Assembly: GCA_031254445.1 (NCBI GenBank)
Contig: JAIRUL010000169.1
Location: 1 to 14,746, forward strand
Source: Chitinispirillales bacterium
GTDB lineage: Bacteria > Fibrobacterota > Chitinivibrionia > Chitinivibrionales > Chitinispirillaceae
Direction: 5' to 3'
Length of the DNA: 14,746 bases
Shown here in pieces: positions 2,224 through 10,739 of the stretch (the first letter of the stretch is position 1; each line of letters starts with the position of its first letter). Below the pieces are notes generated by a model, which saw nothing but the letters and a program-made list of their open reading frames with translations, ran no database searches and was not told the DNA's origin. Both the position numbers and the translations under genes were made by a program.

Positions 2224-4548
2224 TTAGAATAGCTCCTGTTGGCCCGATACAAGGTTATCGAAATCCGCGCCCATCCATACTAAAATCGAATCGGCTATTG
2301 GTCTTAGCTGACAGTCTATATAGTGTTGATAGTCTAACGGGGCCGACAGTTTTTCTACCGGCTGCGGTCCGTTTTTGGTTATATAGTACCGTATCGCCCG
2401 CACCGGCGTGTCCAATAGTTTTGCGGCTTGCACGTGCGGTGGGATGTTTGTTGTGTAGTCGCCGAGTTCTTTTCTTACGCGTTTCCTGTAGATTAGTTTT
2501 TGATCGAAGTCGCCGCGCTGCAAGTGTTCGGCGGTGGCGATAACGTAGTCCTCTAGCGGCTTGCCGGAGAAGAATCGTATGAATAGTTCGTGTTGGAATT
2601 CTTTCGCCAAATCCGTCCAGTCGCTGCGGGCCGATTCCATCCCTTTGAATGTCAGCTCCATCGCGCCGTCACTATTCACCTCCGCCCCGCAGTAATGTTT
2701 TTTTGTCCCAAGGCCGGTGTCGCCGCCCCTAAGCGATGGGATGAAGAAATGGCGGTAGTGGTTTTCGTACTTTAGTTCAAGCGCCGATTTCACCCCGAAG
2801 TCTTCAAGCAGGCGCTCGCGCAGCCAGACGCCGGTCTCTTTGGATATTTTCGCGCCGATTTCGTTTGCGTTCCCTTTCATCTCTTTTCCCATGTTGACAA
2901 AGATGGAATCGGTGTCGCCGTAGATTACTTTTTTGCCGACGGAGTTTTCTATGTGTTCGATGGATGACTTAAGGATGTATTGCCCCGTGAGGGTGATGGA
3001 GGGGGACACCTCGTCCGAGAAGAAGCGGCAGCCGGTTGACGCCAAAACGCCGGCGAAGCTGTTCATGAGGATTTTTATCGCCTGCGAGAGGTACGGATTT
3101 TTGAGCTGTACGGCTAAGGCTCTCGCGGCCATCAGCTCGCGGATAATCTCCGGCATGATTGAGGTGTTTTTTGAGAACGTGGTGCCGATAGGCGTTTTTA
3201 TCCTGTCGGCGTCATCGATTTTGAAGCCTAGCGGGTCAATCATGAATGTCATTATGATAGAGGGGTATAGGCTTTTGAAGTCGAAGACTAGGACATTGTC
3301 GTATAGGCCGGGCGTTGGTTCCAGCACGTATCCGCCGGGCAGCGGCTTTGTGGGCTGCGCGATGTCGGCGGTGTCTATGGCCGCGAAGCCTGCGCGGTGG
3401 AGGCGCGGCAGGTAGAGGTGGTCGAACGAGGCCACGCTCCCGCCGGTCCCGTCGAGCGTCTGCCCGCTGCGCCGCGAGCGCTCGATGGCGTTTGGGAGGA
3501 TATCGGCGCTTGTGAAGATGTTGAGGATGTCTTTCGCTCCTGTCAAGCAGTCGGTGAAGTCGATGTGGCAATCGTCGGCGGAGCGGTTGTACGCCCGCAG
3601 CATGGTGGGGACGTCCATGACCACCCGCCCGGGGACGCGCGCCGTCCAAACGGTTTTTGTGGAAGCGCCGCCGCCGCGCCACTCCCGCCTGCGCTCGGAG
3701 CTCGCGACGCGGCTCCCGTTTTCGCGCCCGATCTCAAAGCGGATGCCGTGTTTGGTGCAGCGTTCTTGGAGTATGCGGAGGGTGAAGCCGGCGGCCTTCC
3801 AGCCGATAATGACGTCCGGGTCGCGCTGCTTTATATAGGTGAGGAAGTCGGTTAATAGCTGATGTTCATCCTTGCATTGCCGTGTCTCGATTTTGGGATG
3901 GCCGCTTCCGGGCTCACGGTTGTTGCCGTGTTGGCGGTTATCACCGTATTGATTATTTCCGCCGTCCCGTTGCCTGTCATCCCCCAATCGTTGATCAACC
4001 AACGCGAAGCGCGTCTCCCTATTGTCCTCCGCGCAGCCAATCCTGCGGAGTTCCTCGCCCTCCCCGGCATCAACGCAAATCGACATAACCCGCAGCTCCG
4101 GTATGAATTCGCATCCCCGCAGATGCGGGTTTTTGAAGTTTGCGAACGCCCCCTGCCGCATTGGTTCGCCGGCGACCCGCATCGACCCGCTGACCATCCG
4201 CTCCATTAGGTATCTTGAGAGGGGGTTGACGTCGGATTCGTAGACGCGGTGCCCGTTTGCCCGCATTCGCCGCGCCGTTTGGAGCATCTGCGCGTGCGTG
4301 TCGAAGTAGAGGCAGTCGACCTCCCGCATATCAAACGACCGCATGGGCAGCGGTTTCCGTTCTTGCGCGCCCTCCGTCTCGCTTCCCGGCACGCTTCGCG
4401 GGCAGAAGAACATGGGCCGGAAGTCGTCCACGAGGATCCTAGCCCGCTCCCCGGAGCCGCCAGCCGCCCAGAGCGTAATTTCGAACTTGCGCCCGCTGTC
4501 CCGATAGTGCGCGGTCAACAAAAAACAGTTTAGGGTTGAATTGGCCAT
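2224..4548 (-). CDS. polB: Family B DNA polymerase, Pol II-like, probably exonuclease-deficient
   Basis: 774 aa; E. coli Pol II is 783 aa and is recognisable along the full length. Polymerase motif A is VFDFKSLYPSII (Asp423), motif C is YGDTDS (Asp545, Asp547), and the thumb-side block SALELKYENHYRHFFIPSLR is Pol II-like. The last residues, QQELF, match the clamp-binding tail of Pol II. Oddities: motif B reads KILMNSFAGVL, with Ala499 where Tyr is expected. The exonuclease acidic motifs are damaged: Exo I reads SICVD (156-160) where Pol II has SIDIE; Exo II reads GWKAAGFT, with Thr256 in place of Asp; Exo III is shortened and reads TGAKD. A 35-residue Asn/Asp/Gln/Gly-rich linker sits at ~186-222. 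Pol II acts in SOS-associated replication restart and bypass. This copy would be a non-proofreading version. No SD precedes the ATG; TATAAT lies 17 nt upstream. Confidence 0.9.
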   Translation of the reverse strand: MANSTLNCFLLTAHYRDSGRKFEITLWAAGGSGERARILVDDFRPMFFCPRSVPGSETEGAQERKPLPMRSFDMREVDCLYFDTHAQMLQTARRMRANGHRVYESDVNPLSRYLMERMVSGSMRVAGEPMRQGAFANFKNPHLRGCEFIPELRVMSICVDAGEGEELRRIGCAEDNRETRFALVDQRLGDDRQRDGGNNQYGDNRQHGNNREPGSGHPKIETRQCKDEHQLLTDFLTYIKQRDPDVIIGWKAAGFTLRILQERCTKHGIRFEIGRENGSRVASSERRREWRGGGASTKTVWTARVPGRVVMDVPTMLRAYNRSADDCHIDFTDCLTGAKDILNIFTSADILPNAIERSRRSGQTLDGTGGSVASFDHLYLPRLHRAGFAAIDTADIAQPTKPLPGGYVLEPTPGLYDNVLVFDFKSLYPSIIMTFMIDPLGFKIDDADRIKTPIGTTFSKNTSIMPEIIRELMAARALAVQLKNPYLSQAIKILMNSFAGVLASTGCRFFSDEVSPSITLTGQYILKSSIEHIENSVGKKVIYGDTDSIFVNMGKEMKGNANEIGAKISKETGVWLRERLLEDFGVKSALELKYENHYRHFFIPSLRGGDTGLGTKKHYCGAEVNSDGAMELTFKGMESARSDWTDLAKEFQHELFIRFFSGKPLEDYVIATAEHLQRGDFDQKLIYRKRVRKELGDYTTNIPPHVQAAKLLDTPVRAIRYYITKNGPQPVEKLSAPLDYQHYIDCQLRPIADSILVWMGADFDNLVSGQQELF

Positions 4549-4669: not shown

Positions 4670-4739
4670 TAAAGTGTGCCGGAGATAAAAAAGTTGAGAA
4701 TTGCGAAAGGTTTTTTATTGAGGGTTGAGACTTAAAAAA

Positions 4740-6302
4740 ATGAGCAGACTTCCCTTAGATAATATTACTTACACTAATATCCTACCGACCGATATGGAAT
4801 CTGCTATAGCGGATTGCGCAAAGATTTATTCTGAGCATTATGGTGTTTGGGGCGAGCGCAGCGGCCGCAGCGGCCGCAAGGGGGAGCATATAAAACTTTC
4901 CGCCCAAAGGTTGCAGAGTTGGCTTAACAATGAGAACACGGGCTTATATGTGGCCAGTTATGATGAAAAATTGATTGGTTACGCGATAGCGTTGAGAGCG
5001 ATCTTGCATAGTCATGGAACGGTGTCTTGGGTTACCCAATTTGTTGTCCATACAGATTATCAAAACAACGGCATAGGGTCTCATTTGTTGCGCCATATAT
5101 GGGGAATGTCGAATGACTACGCTTGGGGCCTTATAACATCCAATCCTTACGCGGTGCGGGCGTTAGAAAAGGCTACGCGTAGAAATTGCGATCCTAAGTA
5201 TATAAGCGGCAACGGTAGGGTTGGTAAATTGCTTAACTTCGCATCTAAGAAAGTTCATTACATTGACGCCGGCATTGAGTGTAAGATAGGCTCGGCAACC
5301 GCTCAGGTAAATACTAATTTTTGTGTTGATCATTCCAATATAGAGTCAAAAATAAAGGCGTTGGAAGACAAAGGCATAAATTGGAAAATGGGGGCGTTAC
5401 AAGAATGCTGGGAGTGGTTTGCGTTCACATTTCGTAATCAAGAGCCGTTTCCCCTCGAAAAGGCTGAAATAGAAAGCATACTTAGAAGCTCGGAAAAAAC
5501 GGTAAAGCAGGCGTATAAGCGTATGTTCGGCGGACAGAGTAAGCCGTATACAAAATATACCGATACGGAGGTGTCGTTTATTTTTTCCGAATGCAGGTTG
5601 CGTAAAGATTCTGTAGTATTTGATTTTGGGTGCGGCACCGGTAGGCACGCTATAGGATTAGCCTTTAAAGGGGTTGTTGTGCGCGCGTTTGACTATGTTG
5701 AAGAAAACATTGAGGCATGTAAGCGCAATCAGCCGTCAATGCCGCCGTCGGGTAAACTAACGTTTCAAGTTGACGATTGCCGAGACCTCGACTTGCCGGA
5801 GCAAGCGGACGCGGTTATTTGCTTATATGACGTGATAGGTTCTTTTAAGGAAGAGGCGGATAATGTAAAAATTATAAAGAATATCGCCACGTGCTTAAAA
5901 CCCGGGGGAACGGCGTTAATATCTGTTATGAATAGCGGGTTAACGCGGGGAAAGGTAAGGGAGTTTGCTTTTAGCAAAGACCCGAATACGTTGTTTGAGT
6001 TGGGTGCAAGCGAAACGATGCAGCGTTCGGGGGAAGTTTTCAATCCGGATCTTATGTTTTTTGACACAGATAGCGAGGTTTTTTATAGAAGGGAGCAATT
6101 TTTAGTAGGGTCGGAATTGCCCGTAGAACTATTCGTATGCGATAGGCGGTACACGAAAGATTCTATATCGCGTATGTGCGAGGATGCCGGGCTACGCGTT
6201 GATTTTGTCCGCCGCGTCCATGCCGGAGACTGGCAAAATGATTTGCCCGAAAGCCATGGCAGCGCCAAAGAAGTCCTTGTGAAGTGCACTCGGGTTGTTT
6301 AG
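4740..6302 (+). CDS. GNAT acetyltransferase / class I SAM methyltransferase fusion
   Basis: 520 aa from the ATG at 4740. A TTG at 4725 in the same frame lies in repeat-derived sequence directly against a GAGGG, so it is less likely. Residues ~10-170 form a GNAT domain: GLYVASYDEKLIGYAIAL, VSWVTQFVVHTDYQNNGIG with the acetyl-CoA loop at ~108-113, then AWGLITSNPYAVRALEKATR. A linker of ~100 residues follows. From ~275 comes a class I methyltransferase: motif I VFDFGCGTGRHAIGLA (~293-308), an acidic residue in AFDYVEENIEACK, then DDCRDLDL and LKPGGTALISV. The substrate is unknown. A small molecule, peptide or tRNA-linked substrate are all possible. The gene is visibly AT-richer than its neighbours and is enclosed by two direct repeats, which suggests acquisition as a cassette. 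The Ser-Gly-Arg repeat near residues 41-47 is encoded by a GC-rich 9-bp duplication. Confidence 0.85.
   Translation: MSRLPLDNITYTNILPTDMESAIADCAKIYSEHYGVWGERSGRSGRKGEHIKLSAQRLQSWLNNENTGLYVASYDEKLIGYAIALRAILHSHGTVSWVTQFVVHTDYQNNGIGSHLLRHIWGMSNDYAWGLITSNPYAVRALEKATRRNCDPKYISGNGRVGKLLNFASKKVHYIDAGIECKIGSATAQVNTNFCVDHSNIESKIKALEDKGINWKMGALQECWEWFAFTFRNQEPFPLEKAEIESILRSSEKTVKQAYKRMFGGQSKPYTKYTDTEVSFIFSECRLRKDSVVFDFGCGTGRHAIGLAFKGVVVRAFDYVEENIEACKRNQPSMPPSGKLTFQVDDCRDLDLPEQADAVICLYDVIGSFKEEADNVKIIKNIATCLKPGGTALISVMNSGLTRGKVREFAFSKDPNTLFELGASETMQRSGEVFNPDLMFFDTDSEVFYRREQFLVGSELPVELFVCDRRYTKDSISRMCEDAGLRVDFVRRVHAGDWQNDLPESHGSAKEVLVKCTRVV
4859..4878 (+). repeat. 9-bp GC-rich tandem repeat inside the GNAT domain gene
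   Basis: The sequence CAGCGGCCGCAGCGGCCGCA contains two abutting AGCGGCCGC units and encodes Ser-Gly-Arg twice. It stands out as a GC-rich island in an AT-rich gene and may be a recent slippage expansion in a loop near the N-terminus. Confidence 0.7.
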
Positions 6303-7993: not shown

Positions 7994-8293
7994 ATGAGTT
8001 ATATTGAAGTTATACGTAAAACAGAGAAACGAAAGTACCGGGCAGACATGAGCATCCGCTGGCTTAGAAACGTGGTGATCGACGGCGAAAAAAGCGCCGT
8101 GGAGGTTCAAATCGGCGACAGGCGCATCGGCGACAAGTGTTACACGCGCATCAACGAGGAGGTGGAGTCGTGGTTCGACAATTACAGCGAAGTGCGCGGC
8201 GAAATCATCGCGCAGGGGGTCGACATCCTCAGAAACAGGCTTATGGGAAAAATCATAACATACCCGAACGGACAGCCCTATGACTGGCAATAA
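7994..8293 (+). CDS. 99-aa protein of unknown function coupled to the GH57 gene
   Basis: The ATG at 7994 is preferred over a TTG at 7988 in the same frame. The sequence is soluble, of mixed strand and helix (SIRWLRNVVIDGEKSAVEVQ, then INEEVESWFDNYSEVRGEII), with one Cys and no signal or membrane segment. Its stop codon lies 14 nt inside the start of the GH57 gene: the codons TAT GAC TGG CAA TAA contain the next ATG. That tight overlap implies coupled translation and probably a shared role, perhaps as an accessory or regulatory subunit of the glucan enzyme. I recognise no family. Confidence 0.75.
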   Translation: MSYIEVIRKTEKRKYRADMSIRWLRNVVIDGEKSAVEVQIGDRRIGDKCYTRINEEVESWFDNYSEVRGEIIAQGVDILRNRLMGKIITYPNGQPYDWQ

Positions 8294-10739
8294 GTATCTG
8301 ATAGTGCACGGCCACTTCTACCAGCCGCCGCGCGAGAACCCGTGGCTAGATATTATCGAGGAGCAGGAGTCCGCCGCGCCTTACCACGACTGGAACGAGC
8401 GGATCTACGACGAGTGCTACCGCCCGAACGCCTACTCGCGCCTGCTTGACGCGAAAGGGATGATCACGGGCATCCACAATAATTACCACAACATGAGCTA
8501 CAACTTCGGCCCGACGCTTTTTACATGGATGGAGCGCTACCACCCCGTCACGGCGCGCAAGGTTATAGCCGCCGACAAGGAGAGCGCGGTGCGCTTCGGC
8601 GGGCACGGGAACGCGGTGGCTCAGGTCTTCAACCACATCATCATGCCGCTCTCCTCGCGGCGCGACCAGCTCACGCAGATACGGTGGGCCAAGCACTTCT
8701 TCAGGAAAAGGTACGGCCGCGACCCCGAGGGGATGTGGCTCGGCGAGGCCGCCATCAACATGGAAACGGTTTTGTGCTTGATAGAGGAGAAGATCGGGTA
8801 TGTCATCCTCTCGCCGAATCAGGTGGAGTCGTTTAGGCGGATGGGCGACAGCGAGTGGGTGAGTACAAACCACGCGCCAATAGACACCCGCCGCCCCTAT
8901 CGCATTTTCCCGCGCACGAGCGGCGGCGAGCAGTTAGACGGGCACATAGACGTCTTTTTCTTCGACGAAGGGCTGTCGAAAGAGGTCAGTTTCAATAACC
9001 TATTGCAAGATTCGCGGACGCTCGGGAACCGCATAAACGGGTGCTACGACAATAACGACGGCAGGAACCAGCTTGTCACTATCGCCACCGACGGCGAGAC
9101 TTTCGGCCACCACAAGGCTTACGGCGACATGTGCCTCGCCTACTTTTTCACGAGCATCGCGCCGGAGATGGGCATAAAGCCGGTCAACTTTGGTTACTAT
9201 TTGTCAATCAACCCGCCCGAGTACGAGGTAATGCTCGGCGACGCTTTCGGCGAGGGGCGCTCTTGGAGCTGCGCGCACGGCGTGGGGCGGTGGTCGCGCG
9301 ACTGCGGCTGCCAGACGGGCGGCAAGCCCGAGTGGAATCAGGCGTGGCGCGGCCCGCTTAGGCAAGCGCTTCAGAAGCTCCAGTCGCAGATAGACTTTCA
9401 CTTCGAGGGGCGTCTCTCCACGCTCTTCAACGACCCGTGGGCGTTGCGCGACAAGTATATAAACGTGATGTGGGAGCCGTCGCTCGACAAGATGTCCGAC
9501 TTTTTGCGGGCGCAGGCGGGCGGCAAGTTCGTCTTCGGCGAGGAGCTCACCGCGGAGATACGCCGCCTCCTCGAGGCGCAGAAGTTCATGCTCTTCGCGT
9601 TTACCTCGTGCGCGTGGTTCTTCTGCGAGATAAGCGGCATAGAGACGATCCAAAACTTAGCCTACGCCTGCCGCGCCCTGCAGCTTGGGCTGCCGGAAGA
9701 CAGCAGGCACCCGACGCTTGCCGCGTTTTTGGACGACCTCTCCAAAGCGCCGAGCAACCTAAGCGAGTTCGGGAACGGGCGGCGGCTCTTCGAGATGAAG
9801 ATACTGCCGTACTACCACCACGAGCGCCTCTTAGCTTTCGCCGCCGCCGCGCAGCAGATACTCGCCGTCAAGCGCCAATCGTCATACGAAAAAACCGTCT
9901 ACAACTTAGAGCTCAAATCGGTGATGTCGTACCGCATAGAACGCATGCACTACGACACCGTCGCCGTGCAGATGGAGAGCGGCATGACGGGCGAGAACAG
10001 TTCGTGGTCGGTGCTCATCTCCCACAGCCCCGAAGCGGAGCTGCGCGGCTGGGTCGTGCCGGCCAAAGGGATGCCGCAAGGCAGCGGAAAACCCGACGCT
10101 TGGATGTCGCACCCGGACGCCTGCGTCTTCACCCTAGCCGACCTCTTCTACAGCTCCCGCCAAGACCTGTCGGGCTACTTCCTAGACCTCATGGCCAAGG
10201 ACACCGACAGCAGGTTCTTGGGCTGGATGGAGCAAAACGAACACAACCTAAACGTCCTCACGCGCCTAAACTACCCGATTCCGGCGTACTGCAGCTCGCC
10301 CGTCGGCTACGTCCTGCAAAACCGCTGGGACGCGCAGATGCAGAAGCTCGAGAAGTGGGGCGGCGAAGAACACGTGGCCGCGGAGCTTGAGACGGTAGAC
10401 TACCTAAGTAAGCTCTACGGCGCGGACATCGATAAAAAGCGAAACTCGTTAGCCCTTCAAAACACAATAATAAAAGGCTTAGAGATGTTGCAGCAGCGCC
10501 CGTCCGCAAAAGTGTGCGACCGCCTGCGCGGCCTGATGGATATCGTAGACAAGTTCGCGGTGCCGCTCTCAAAGAGCAAACTAGAGGATTTCTTCTACCC
10601 CGTCCACGAGGGGGCGCTGAACGACTACTACGCCAAGTACAAGGGCGGCGCTTGCACAATCGAGGAGAAGGAGCTCTTAGAGCAGCTTGTAAGCTTCGCG
10701 AGGAGGATGAATTTTAATACCGACCGTTACGCGATTTAA
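8280..10739 (+). CDS. Glycoside hydrolase family 57 protein with DUF3536 region
   Basis: 819 aa. The N-terminal ~390 residues are a GH57 barrel: VHGHFYQPPRENPW (9-22, conserved region 1), HNNYHNMSYNFGPTL (66-80), GHGNAVAQVFNHIIMPL, MWLGEAAI with the expected nucleophile Glu156, and ATDGETFGHHK with the expected acid/base Asp271. GH57 enzymes are retaining α-amylase, amylopullulanase, branching-type or glucanotransferase enzymes. The long helical C-terminal half (from ~390), including FTSCAWFFCEISGIETIQNL, matches the DUF3536 type of GH57 proteins, whose substrate is not well established. No signal peptide is present, so a cytoplasmic role in glycogen or α-glucan turnover is inferred. The start overlaps the stop of the 99-aa gene. 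No clear terminator follows. Confidence 0.9.
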   Translation: MTGNKYLIVHGHFYQPPRENPWLDIIEEQESAAPYHDWNERIYDECYRPNAYSRLLDAKGMITGIHNNYHNMSYNFGPTLFTWMERYHPVTARKVIAADKESAVRFGGHGNAVAQVFNHIIMPLSSRRDQLTQIRWAKHFFRKRYGRDPEGMWLGEAAINMETVLCLIEEKIGYVILSPNQVESFRRMGDSEWVSTNHAPIDTRRPYRIFPRTSGGEQLDGHIDVFFFDEGLSKEVSFNNLLQDSRTLGNRINGCYDNNDGRNQLVTIATDGETFGHHKAYGDMCLAYFFTSIAPEMGIKPVNFGYYLSINPPEYEVMLGDAFGEGRSWSCAHGVGRWSRDCGCQTGGKPEWNQAWRGPLRQALQKLQSQIDFHFEGRLSTLFNDPWALRDKYINVMWEPSLDKMSDFLRAQAGGKFVFGEELTAEIRRLLEAQKFMLFAFTSCAWFFCEISGIETIQNLAYACRALQLGLPEDSRHPTLAAFLDDLSKAPSNLSEFGNGRRLFEMKILPYYHHERLLAFAAAAQQILAVKRQSSYEKTVYNLELKSVMSYRIERMHYDTVAVQMESGMTGENSSWSVLISHSPEAELRGWVVPAKGMPQGSGKPDAWMSHPDACVFTLADLFYSSRQDLSGYFLDLMAKDTDSRFLGWMEQNEHNLNVLTRLNYPIPAYCSSPVGYVLQNRWDAQMQKLEKWGGEEHVAAELETVDYLSKLYGADIDKKRNSLALQNTIIKGLEMLQQRPSAKVCDRLRGLMDIVDKFAVPLSKSKLEDFFYPVHEGALNDYYAKYKGGACTIEEKELLEQLVSFARRMNFNTDRYAI

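Follow-up and report, generated by a model that had tools for sequence, protein, structure and literature searches.

A Fibrobacterota clade of DNA polymerase II with a degenerate proofreading exonuclease and a motif B Tyr-to-Ala change: a candidate lesion-bypass polymerase

Can a bacterial DNA polymerase II (Pol II) give up proofreading and still be maintained as a polymerase, and what would such an enzyme be used for? The Pol II group (G1) has been characterized by conserved exonuclease and polymerase sites (PMC12926913). The window analyzed here, a stretch of 14,746 nucleotides, lies on contig C15 of a draft genome (G000; 1.97 Mb, 70% complete, 301 contigs) from a genus (g1) that we take to be a termite-gut genus. 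An initial annotation, made from the sequence alone, had described its polB gene as coding for a Pol II-like enzyme with an eroded exonuclease, and had read this as a selected loss of proofreading that would make the polymerase mutagenic or specialized for lesion bypass. As far as sequence can carry such a claim, our analysis supports this interpretation; the loss itself may have been selected or may reflect relaxed constraint. It also brings in a tyrosine-to-alanine change in motif B and the genomic context of the gene, both of which were absent from the annotation.

The gene occupies positions 2224..4548 on the minus strand and codes for a protein of 774 aa. The open reading frame contains no internal stop, as the annotation had stated for all 774 codons. 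Both PF00136 and PF03104 match the translated frame (Pfam), the NCBIfam model NF004421 ‘DNA polymerase II’ scores 662 bits against a cut-off of 570, and the top match among solved structures is E. coli Pol II. The AlphaFold2 model (pLDDT 86.2) has the E. coli Pol II fold, in agreement with the structural check that the annotation had proposed. Counting segments of at least three residues, pLDDT falls below 50 only at residues 188–216 and in the last three residues. The former belong to a low-complexity N/D/G/R-rich insertion of 30 residues (188–217; 3898..3987, minus strand); the homologue P0002 carries an Asn-rich insertion of different sequence at approximately the same place, as judged by eye. 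No other B-family polymerase was found in the genome of the window.

Aligning the protein with the Pol II of E. coli K-12 and with RB69 gp43 placed the catalytic motifs of the polymerase domain. Motif A (DFKSLYPS; 3259..3282, minus strand) retains the catalytic D423 as well as the steric-gate Y428, and motif C (YGDTDS; 2905..2922, minus strand) retains D545 and D547. By alignment, the protein therefore has the catalytic aspartates characteristic of Pol II, and alignment, NF004421 and fold together bear out the earlier assignment as a Pol II-like enzyme whose aspartates in motifs A and C are in place. The C terminus ends in QQELF (2227..2241, minus strand), which by sequence comparison corresponds to the sliding-clamp-binding type of motif (QxxLF) known from Pol II. 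This motif was present at the C terminus, or a few residues from the end, in all 27 of the homologues P0001–P0027.

The exonuclease region presents a different picture. Between residues 154 and 340 (3529..4089, minus strand), the protein has a degenerate 3'-5' exonuclease domain in which the four metal-ligand positions are altered by alignment: E. coli D156 and E158 correspond to C158 and D160 within what is left of Exo I, where C158-V159-D160 replaces D-I-E (4069..4077, minus strand); D229 of Exo II corresponds to T256 (3781..3783, minus strand); and D335 of Exo III corresponds to G337 (3538..3540, minus strand), just past the junction of a deletion. Measured against the exo-intact relative P0028, this deletion comprises 35 residues. 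The annotation had read CVD for the Exo I motif, Thr for the Exo II aspartate and a gap of roughly 30 residues before Exo III, and was right on all three. Two of its details did not stand: the Exo III tyrosine, said to be replaced by threonine, falls inside the 35-residue gap, and the final Exo III aspartate, said to remain, is missing from the window protein and the other exo-dead homologues alike.

Among the best-scoring 120 of 6400 homologue matches (own protein included), 30 were exo-dead (P0001–P0027, P0032, P0034 and P0035) and 90 intact; the homologues on named genome contigs come from Chitinispirillales, Chitinispirillia, Fibrobacteria and Chitinivibrionales MAGs. An acidic residue (D/E) was found in the D156 column in none of the 28 exo-dead sequences covering it, and in the D229 and D335 columns in none of 30 each. 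All four ligand columns were invariant in the 91 exo-intact sequences (90 homologues and E. coli). Furthermore, the stretch equivalent to E. coli residues 299–330 is wholly missing from 29 of the 30 exo-dead proteins. This profile alignment, which the annotation had suggested as a check, confirms the ligand loss. The window protein lacks the conserved 3'-5' exonuclease active site expected of a G1 Pol II, and judged from sequence it is near certain that the site is lost and the exonuclease dead. A separate search for further exonuclease losses, started from E. coli Pol II (best 120 listed, two shorter proteins set aside), gave 118 proteins longer than 770 aa, all of which keep the four motifs as assessed by text pattern; these matches are close Enterobacterales and therefore have little bearing on distant Pol II.

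The other change concerns the nascent base-pair pocket. Motif B reads KILMNSFAG (3049..3075, minus strand), and its A499 (codon 3052–3054) stands in the alignment column of RB69 Y567 and E. coli Y500. NSFAG replaces NSFYG in 29 of the 30 exo-dead proteins, while the tyrosine is present in 90/90 intact homologues and in E. coli. Among the eight g1 genomes, seven encode NSFAG in their Pol II. A DNA pattern for the alanine motif matched in 6 of 167 Fibrobacterota genomes, every one of them of genus g1; G001 has the motif followed by a residue outside the DNA pattern. Across 3.49 substitutions per site of the tree, the alanine is unchanged. To our knowledge, a motif B Tyr-to-Ala change is otherwise known from laboratory mutants only. 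Elsewhere in the polymerase domain, residue 615 (E. coli S613), the Ser before KK(H/R)Y, is invariant in the 91 intact sequences and has become Thr (26) or Ala (4) in the exo-dead ones; this clade-specific change adjoins the lysine aligned with RB69 K706.

Several RB69 studies indicate what the motif B change may do. The Y567A mutant is reported to form mismatches more readily and to extend them better, being less discriminating (PMC3377560), and to insert opposite guanidinohydantoin with a more than 100-fold higher efficiency, extension beyond this lesion being blocked (PMC3978516). The substitution is also part of triple and quadruple mutants for capturing mismatches (PMC3799440). Since Y567A is described as improving crystals while leaving the catalytic parameters unaffected (PMC3792054), polymerase activity should be preserved. 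Taken together with the predicted absence of proofreading, low fidelity of the window Pol II is likely.

To place both changes in evolutionary order, we used a tree of the polymerase domain from which the Tyr/Ala column had been removed. It grouped the 30 exo-dead sequences into one clade (support 100/99), within which the 29 alanine-bearing sequences form a clade (97/96) with the tyrosine-bearing P0023 as their sister. A quick full-length tree concurred (SH-aLRT 100 for the exo-dead clade, 88 for the alanine clade); because it had long outgroup branches, fewer sequences were used in the polymerase-domain tree. The question raised with the annotation, whether exo-less homologues form a clade, is thereby answered in the affirmative. 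As P0023, the first-branching member, keeps the tyrosine, proofreading would have been lost before the motif B residue, and the simplest order suggested by the sequences is loss of the exonuclease followed by Tyr to Ala.

Loss of a site may herald the decay of a whole gene, and we therefore compared constraint between domains. Synonymous sites were taken as saturated at ~60–70% protein identity, for which reason domain distance ratios were used, together with the retention of invariant positions (at least 97% conserved among the 91 intact sequences). Averaged over the exo-dead set as a whole, retention amounts to 96% for the polymerase domain (111 positions), 90% for the N domain (18) and 46% for the exonuclease domain (38). 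The median exo/pol distance ratio was 2.60 for 28 exo-dead proteins (fragments P0032 and P0034 left out of all distance ratios), compared with 1.23 for 82 intact proteins and 1.26 for the 10 nearest intact proteins; matching the pairs for polymerase-domain distance gave 2.59 for exo-dead and 1.33 for intact proteins. The N/pol ratio amounted to 1.75 in exo-dead proteins, 1.44 in intact ones and 1.63 in the 10 nearest intact ones. With the polymerase domain kept and the exonuclease domain relaxed, as the annotation's reading would have it, the enzyme as a whole is not decaying by these sequence measures. In all eight g1 genomes, the Pol II frame is open over 736–800 codons.

The exo-dead form appears to be a property of the genus. 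Pol II was matched in 31 of 60 genomes (own included): it is exo-dead in 8/8 g1 genomes and intact in 21 others, with partial genes in G011 and G033 left unclassed. The 21 Pol II genes of other genera (L010–L030, two of them truncated) all carry the exonuclease ligands and the tyrosine. Gene searches in 22 of the 24 genomes of family f1 (8 g1 and 14 of other genera; G011 and G023 left out) revealed a marked difference in the repair repertoire. Y-family polymerases (PF00817) scored over the cut-off in none of the 8 g1 genomes vs 13/14 relatives, LexA in 0/8 vs 12/14, and a second, DnaE2-like DnaE in 0/8 vs 10/14. The IMS_C domain (PF11799) was likewise over the cut-off in 0/8 g1 genomes in a search of 13 genomes. 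Relatives outside g1 also include genomes without LexA (2/14) or DnaE2 (4/14). One weak Y-family match, in G002 (20 bits, E 8.4e-4), stayed below the cut-off; it lies in a 449-aa ORF that by eye resembles a protein of response-regulator type.

Other repair genes are more widely retained. At E≤0.001, RecA was matched in 6/8 g1 genomes and 14/14 relatives (over the cut-off, 6/8 and 13/14), and MutS in 6/8 and 14/14 (over the cut-off, 5/8 and 13/14); the matches below the cut-off are fragments. The PHP motifs of DnaE1 are kept in 7/7 g1 sequences examined by eye over the first 420 alignment columns (AIMDHG in two, AITDHG in the others), and G003 yielded no DnaE1 over the cut-off. The g1 genomes are all drafts, three of the eight at 68–70% completeness, and the window's own genome lacks a RecA match; absences in a single genome therefore mean little. 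The probability that a universal gene is missing from all eight through incompleteness is 1.3e-7, assuming independence.

Three further observations concern the SOS genes of the group. G019, a genome of the sister genus (88% complete), has no Y-family polymerase over the cut-off, yet carries an exo-intact, tyrosine-bearing Pol II; it has LexA and may stand at a preceding step of this loss, unless the missing match merely reflects an incomplete assembly. LexA-box-like words upstream of polB were scattered over 4 of 30 regions, none of them in g1, in a scan in which two regions were shorter than 6 bases; this result says little about SOS control of the gene. On L053 (1399–8316), from one relative, lexA is followed by a radical-SAM-like and a DUF72-like gene, and these by a gene for a Y-family protein, probably ImuB, and a dnaE2-like gene; the array resembles an ImuB/DnaE2-type mutagenesis cluster with extra genes mid-row.

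An M23 peptidase gene and a small gene accompany polB both in g1 and in the exo-intact sister genus, which fits a locus that was inherited vertically. Comparison of the neighbors by blastp, with partial annotation, revealed no constant new partner gene beside polB in g1. In the window itself, a divergent gene for a GNAT acetyltransferase–SAM methyltransferase fusion (4725–6302, plus strand) separates polB from the M23 peptidase gene; comparison with eight other neighborhoods revealed no relative of this fusion. Further along, positions 8280–10739 (plus strand) encode a protein of 819 aa that combines domains of glycoside hydrolase family 57 and DUF3536.

How might these observations fit together? 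By sequence and tree, Pol II gave up proofreading in the common ancestor of one Fibrobacterota lineage, represented by one genus in the genomes compared. Alanine then took the place of the conserved tyrosine that motif B lends to the nascent base-pair pocket, in every member except the first to branch off, while the polymerase active site, the fold and the clamp-binding tail were retained. Recruited by the sliding clamp to stalled forks, such an enzyme could use its enlarged, less selective pocket to insert opposite damage or to extend past damage and mismatched ends. Lacking the exonuclease, it would leave the product in place, so that bypass would be gained at the price of errors. As no LexA, Y-family polymerase or DnaE2 was detected in the genus, Pol II is probably its sole specialized polymerase for bypass or mismatch extension. 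We consider it rather probable that, after two losses of fidelity, Pol II is the genus's only remaining specialized, error-prone lesion-bypass polymerase. The bypass role is suggested by a single evolutionary event seen in the sequences, and with gene losses and polymerase changes that each happened once, a causal link between them lies beyond statistical testing. Several observations count against the reading: the intact Pol II of G019 despite its missing Y-family match, the draft state of the g1 genomes, the relatives outside g1 that also lack LexA or DnaE2 and, for RB69 Y567A, the blocked extension past guanidinohydantoin and the unaffected catalytic parameters. The most economical account is that Pol II became a dedicated bypass polymerase as the lineage lost its SOS and Y-family/DnaE2 repertoire. 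More tentatively, and with somewhat more doubt than confidence, a whole SOS-controlled Y-family/DnaE2 system may have been replaced by one accurate polymerase turned mutagenic in two steps, the intermediate (P0023) being extant.

Relaxed selection in a shrinking genome might produce a similar pattern with no new role: Pol II would have become less important, its exonuclease would have drifted, Tyr to Ala would have hitchhiked, and the enzyme itself might be heading for loss. The g1 assemblies are indeed small (2.0–2.9 Mb vs 2.9–6.6 Mb for the other 16 family genomes, uncorrected for completeness), and SOS and TLS genes go undetected in g1, as in reductive evolution. We nevertheless regard this account as unlikely, given the frame left open in all eight g1 genomes, a polymerase domain retaining 96% of its invariant residues, and an N domain without exo-like acceleration. 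Moreover, alanine occupies motif B in 29/29 tyrosine-less sequences, whereas the exonuclease ligand positions wander, and most g1 genomes still have MutS, RecA and the PHP motifs of DnaE1. Retention of MutS and the replicase PHP motifs would suit yet another possibility, less likely still, in which Pol II continues in repair or gap filling, its errors are cleared in trans by another exonuclease, and the alanine fits the pocket to damaged or modified nucleotides; a change of pocket need not mean bypass. The lack of a constant new partner beside g1 polB speaks against it, and the retained steric-gate Tyr428 does not suggest ribonucleotide use.

A further alternative leaves the exonuclease active through rearranged acids, such as the D160, E163 and D333 named with the initial annotation. 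The domain fold is still modeled, the E158 column holds Asp in 24 of the 28 exo-dead sequences covering it, and other acids of the region are conserved, some in the exo-dead set only (151, 174, 349). A working site from the three named residues was not borne out, however: D160 is the residue of the E158 column, the D333 column has Asp in only 17 exo-dead sequences, and E163 is absent from the columns with at least 85% D/E. With three of the four ligand columns free of D/E in every covering exo-dead sequence, the Exo III tyrosine stretch deleted, and the domain evolving about twice as fast relative to the polymerase domain as in intact relatives, an active exonuclease is very improbable. An error of sequencing or assembly in one draft genome, which the fragmentation of G000 into 301 contigs might invite, has a negligible probability: the same changes recur in 30 proteins (best 120 of 6400) and in 8/8 g1 genomes, and with 30/30 members exo-dead, the clade contains no intact-motif relative that would point to errors in this copy.

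The finding matters in several ways. The clade departs from the description of Pol II as exonuclease-conserved (PMC12926913), and the order of its two fidelity losses can be read on a tree. P0028 (exo+, Tyr), P0023 (exo-, Tyr) and P0001 (exo-, Ala) would form a stepwise series toward a bypass polymerase. The genus raises the question of how DNA damage is survived when SOS and Y-family enzymes are missing. In a literature search covering titles and abstract openings, we recognized no published report of an exo-dead Pol II.

Among known systems, the closest by descent is E. coli Pol II (polB, group G1), to which alignment, the NCBIfam model and the fold all link the window protein as an orthologue. 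Both share the N-exo-pol arrangement, motifs A and C and the C-terminal QxxLF; in contrast to E. coli Pol II, the window protein has lost its exonuclease site, carries alanine in motif B and belongs to a genus without detected LexA. PolB2 (G2) is described as having a disabled exonuclease, lacking the first Asp of YGDTDS and carrying a group-specific D(K/R) motif (PMC7544198), and its archaeal form Dpo2 as an error-prone bypass enzyme with no recognizable proofreading domain (PMC7390963). The window protein likewise has an inactivated exonuclease with Exo III missing, but it retains both YGDTDS aspartates, and its score exceeds the Pol II cut-off. Membership in PolB2 was rejected on account of the intact first Asp of motif C, and judged on these features, the exonuclease loss would be separate from that of PolB2. 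The catalytic subunit of Pol zeta, described in the same source as a B-family bypass polymerase of low fidelity whose exonuclease is inactivated (PMC7544198), belongs to another B-family branch and is likened here by description, not by sequence. In RB69 gp43, where exo- mutants have their ligands removed by D222A/D327A (PMC3792054), Y567A and exo- together represent the two kinds of defect seen in the window Pol II. Those mutants were engineered in a phage replicase, whereas the two changes seen here occur naturally in an accessory polymerase and are fixed in a clade; if our reading is true, this Pol II is what nature offers as an equivalent of RB69 exo- Y567A, and P0023 is a living intermediate. 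As far as sequence tells, the window protein resembles PolB2 and Pol zeta in its working and is a Pol II by descent.
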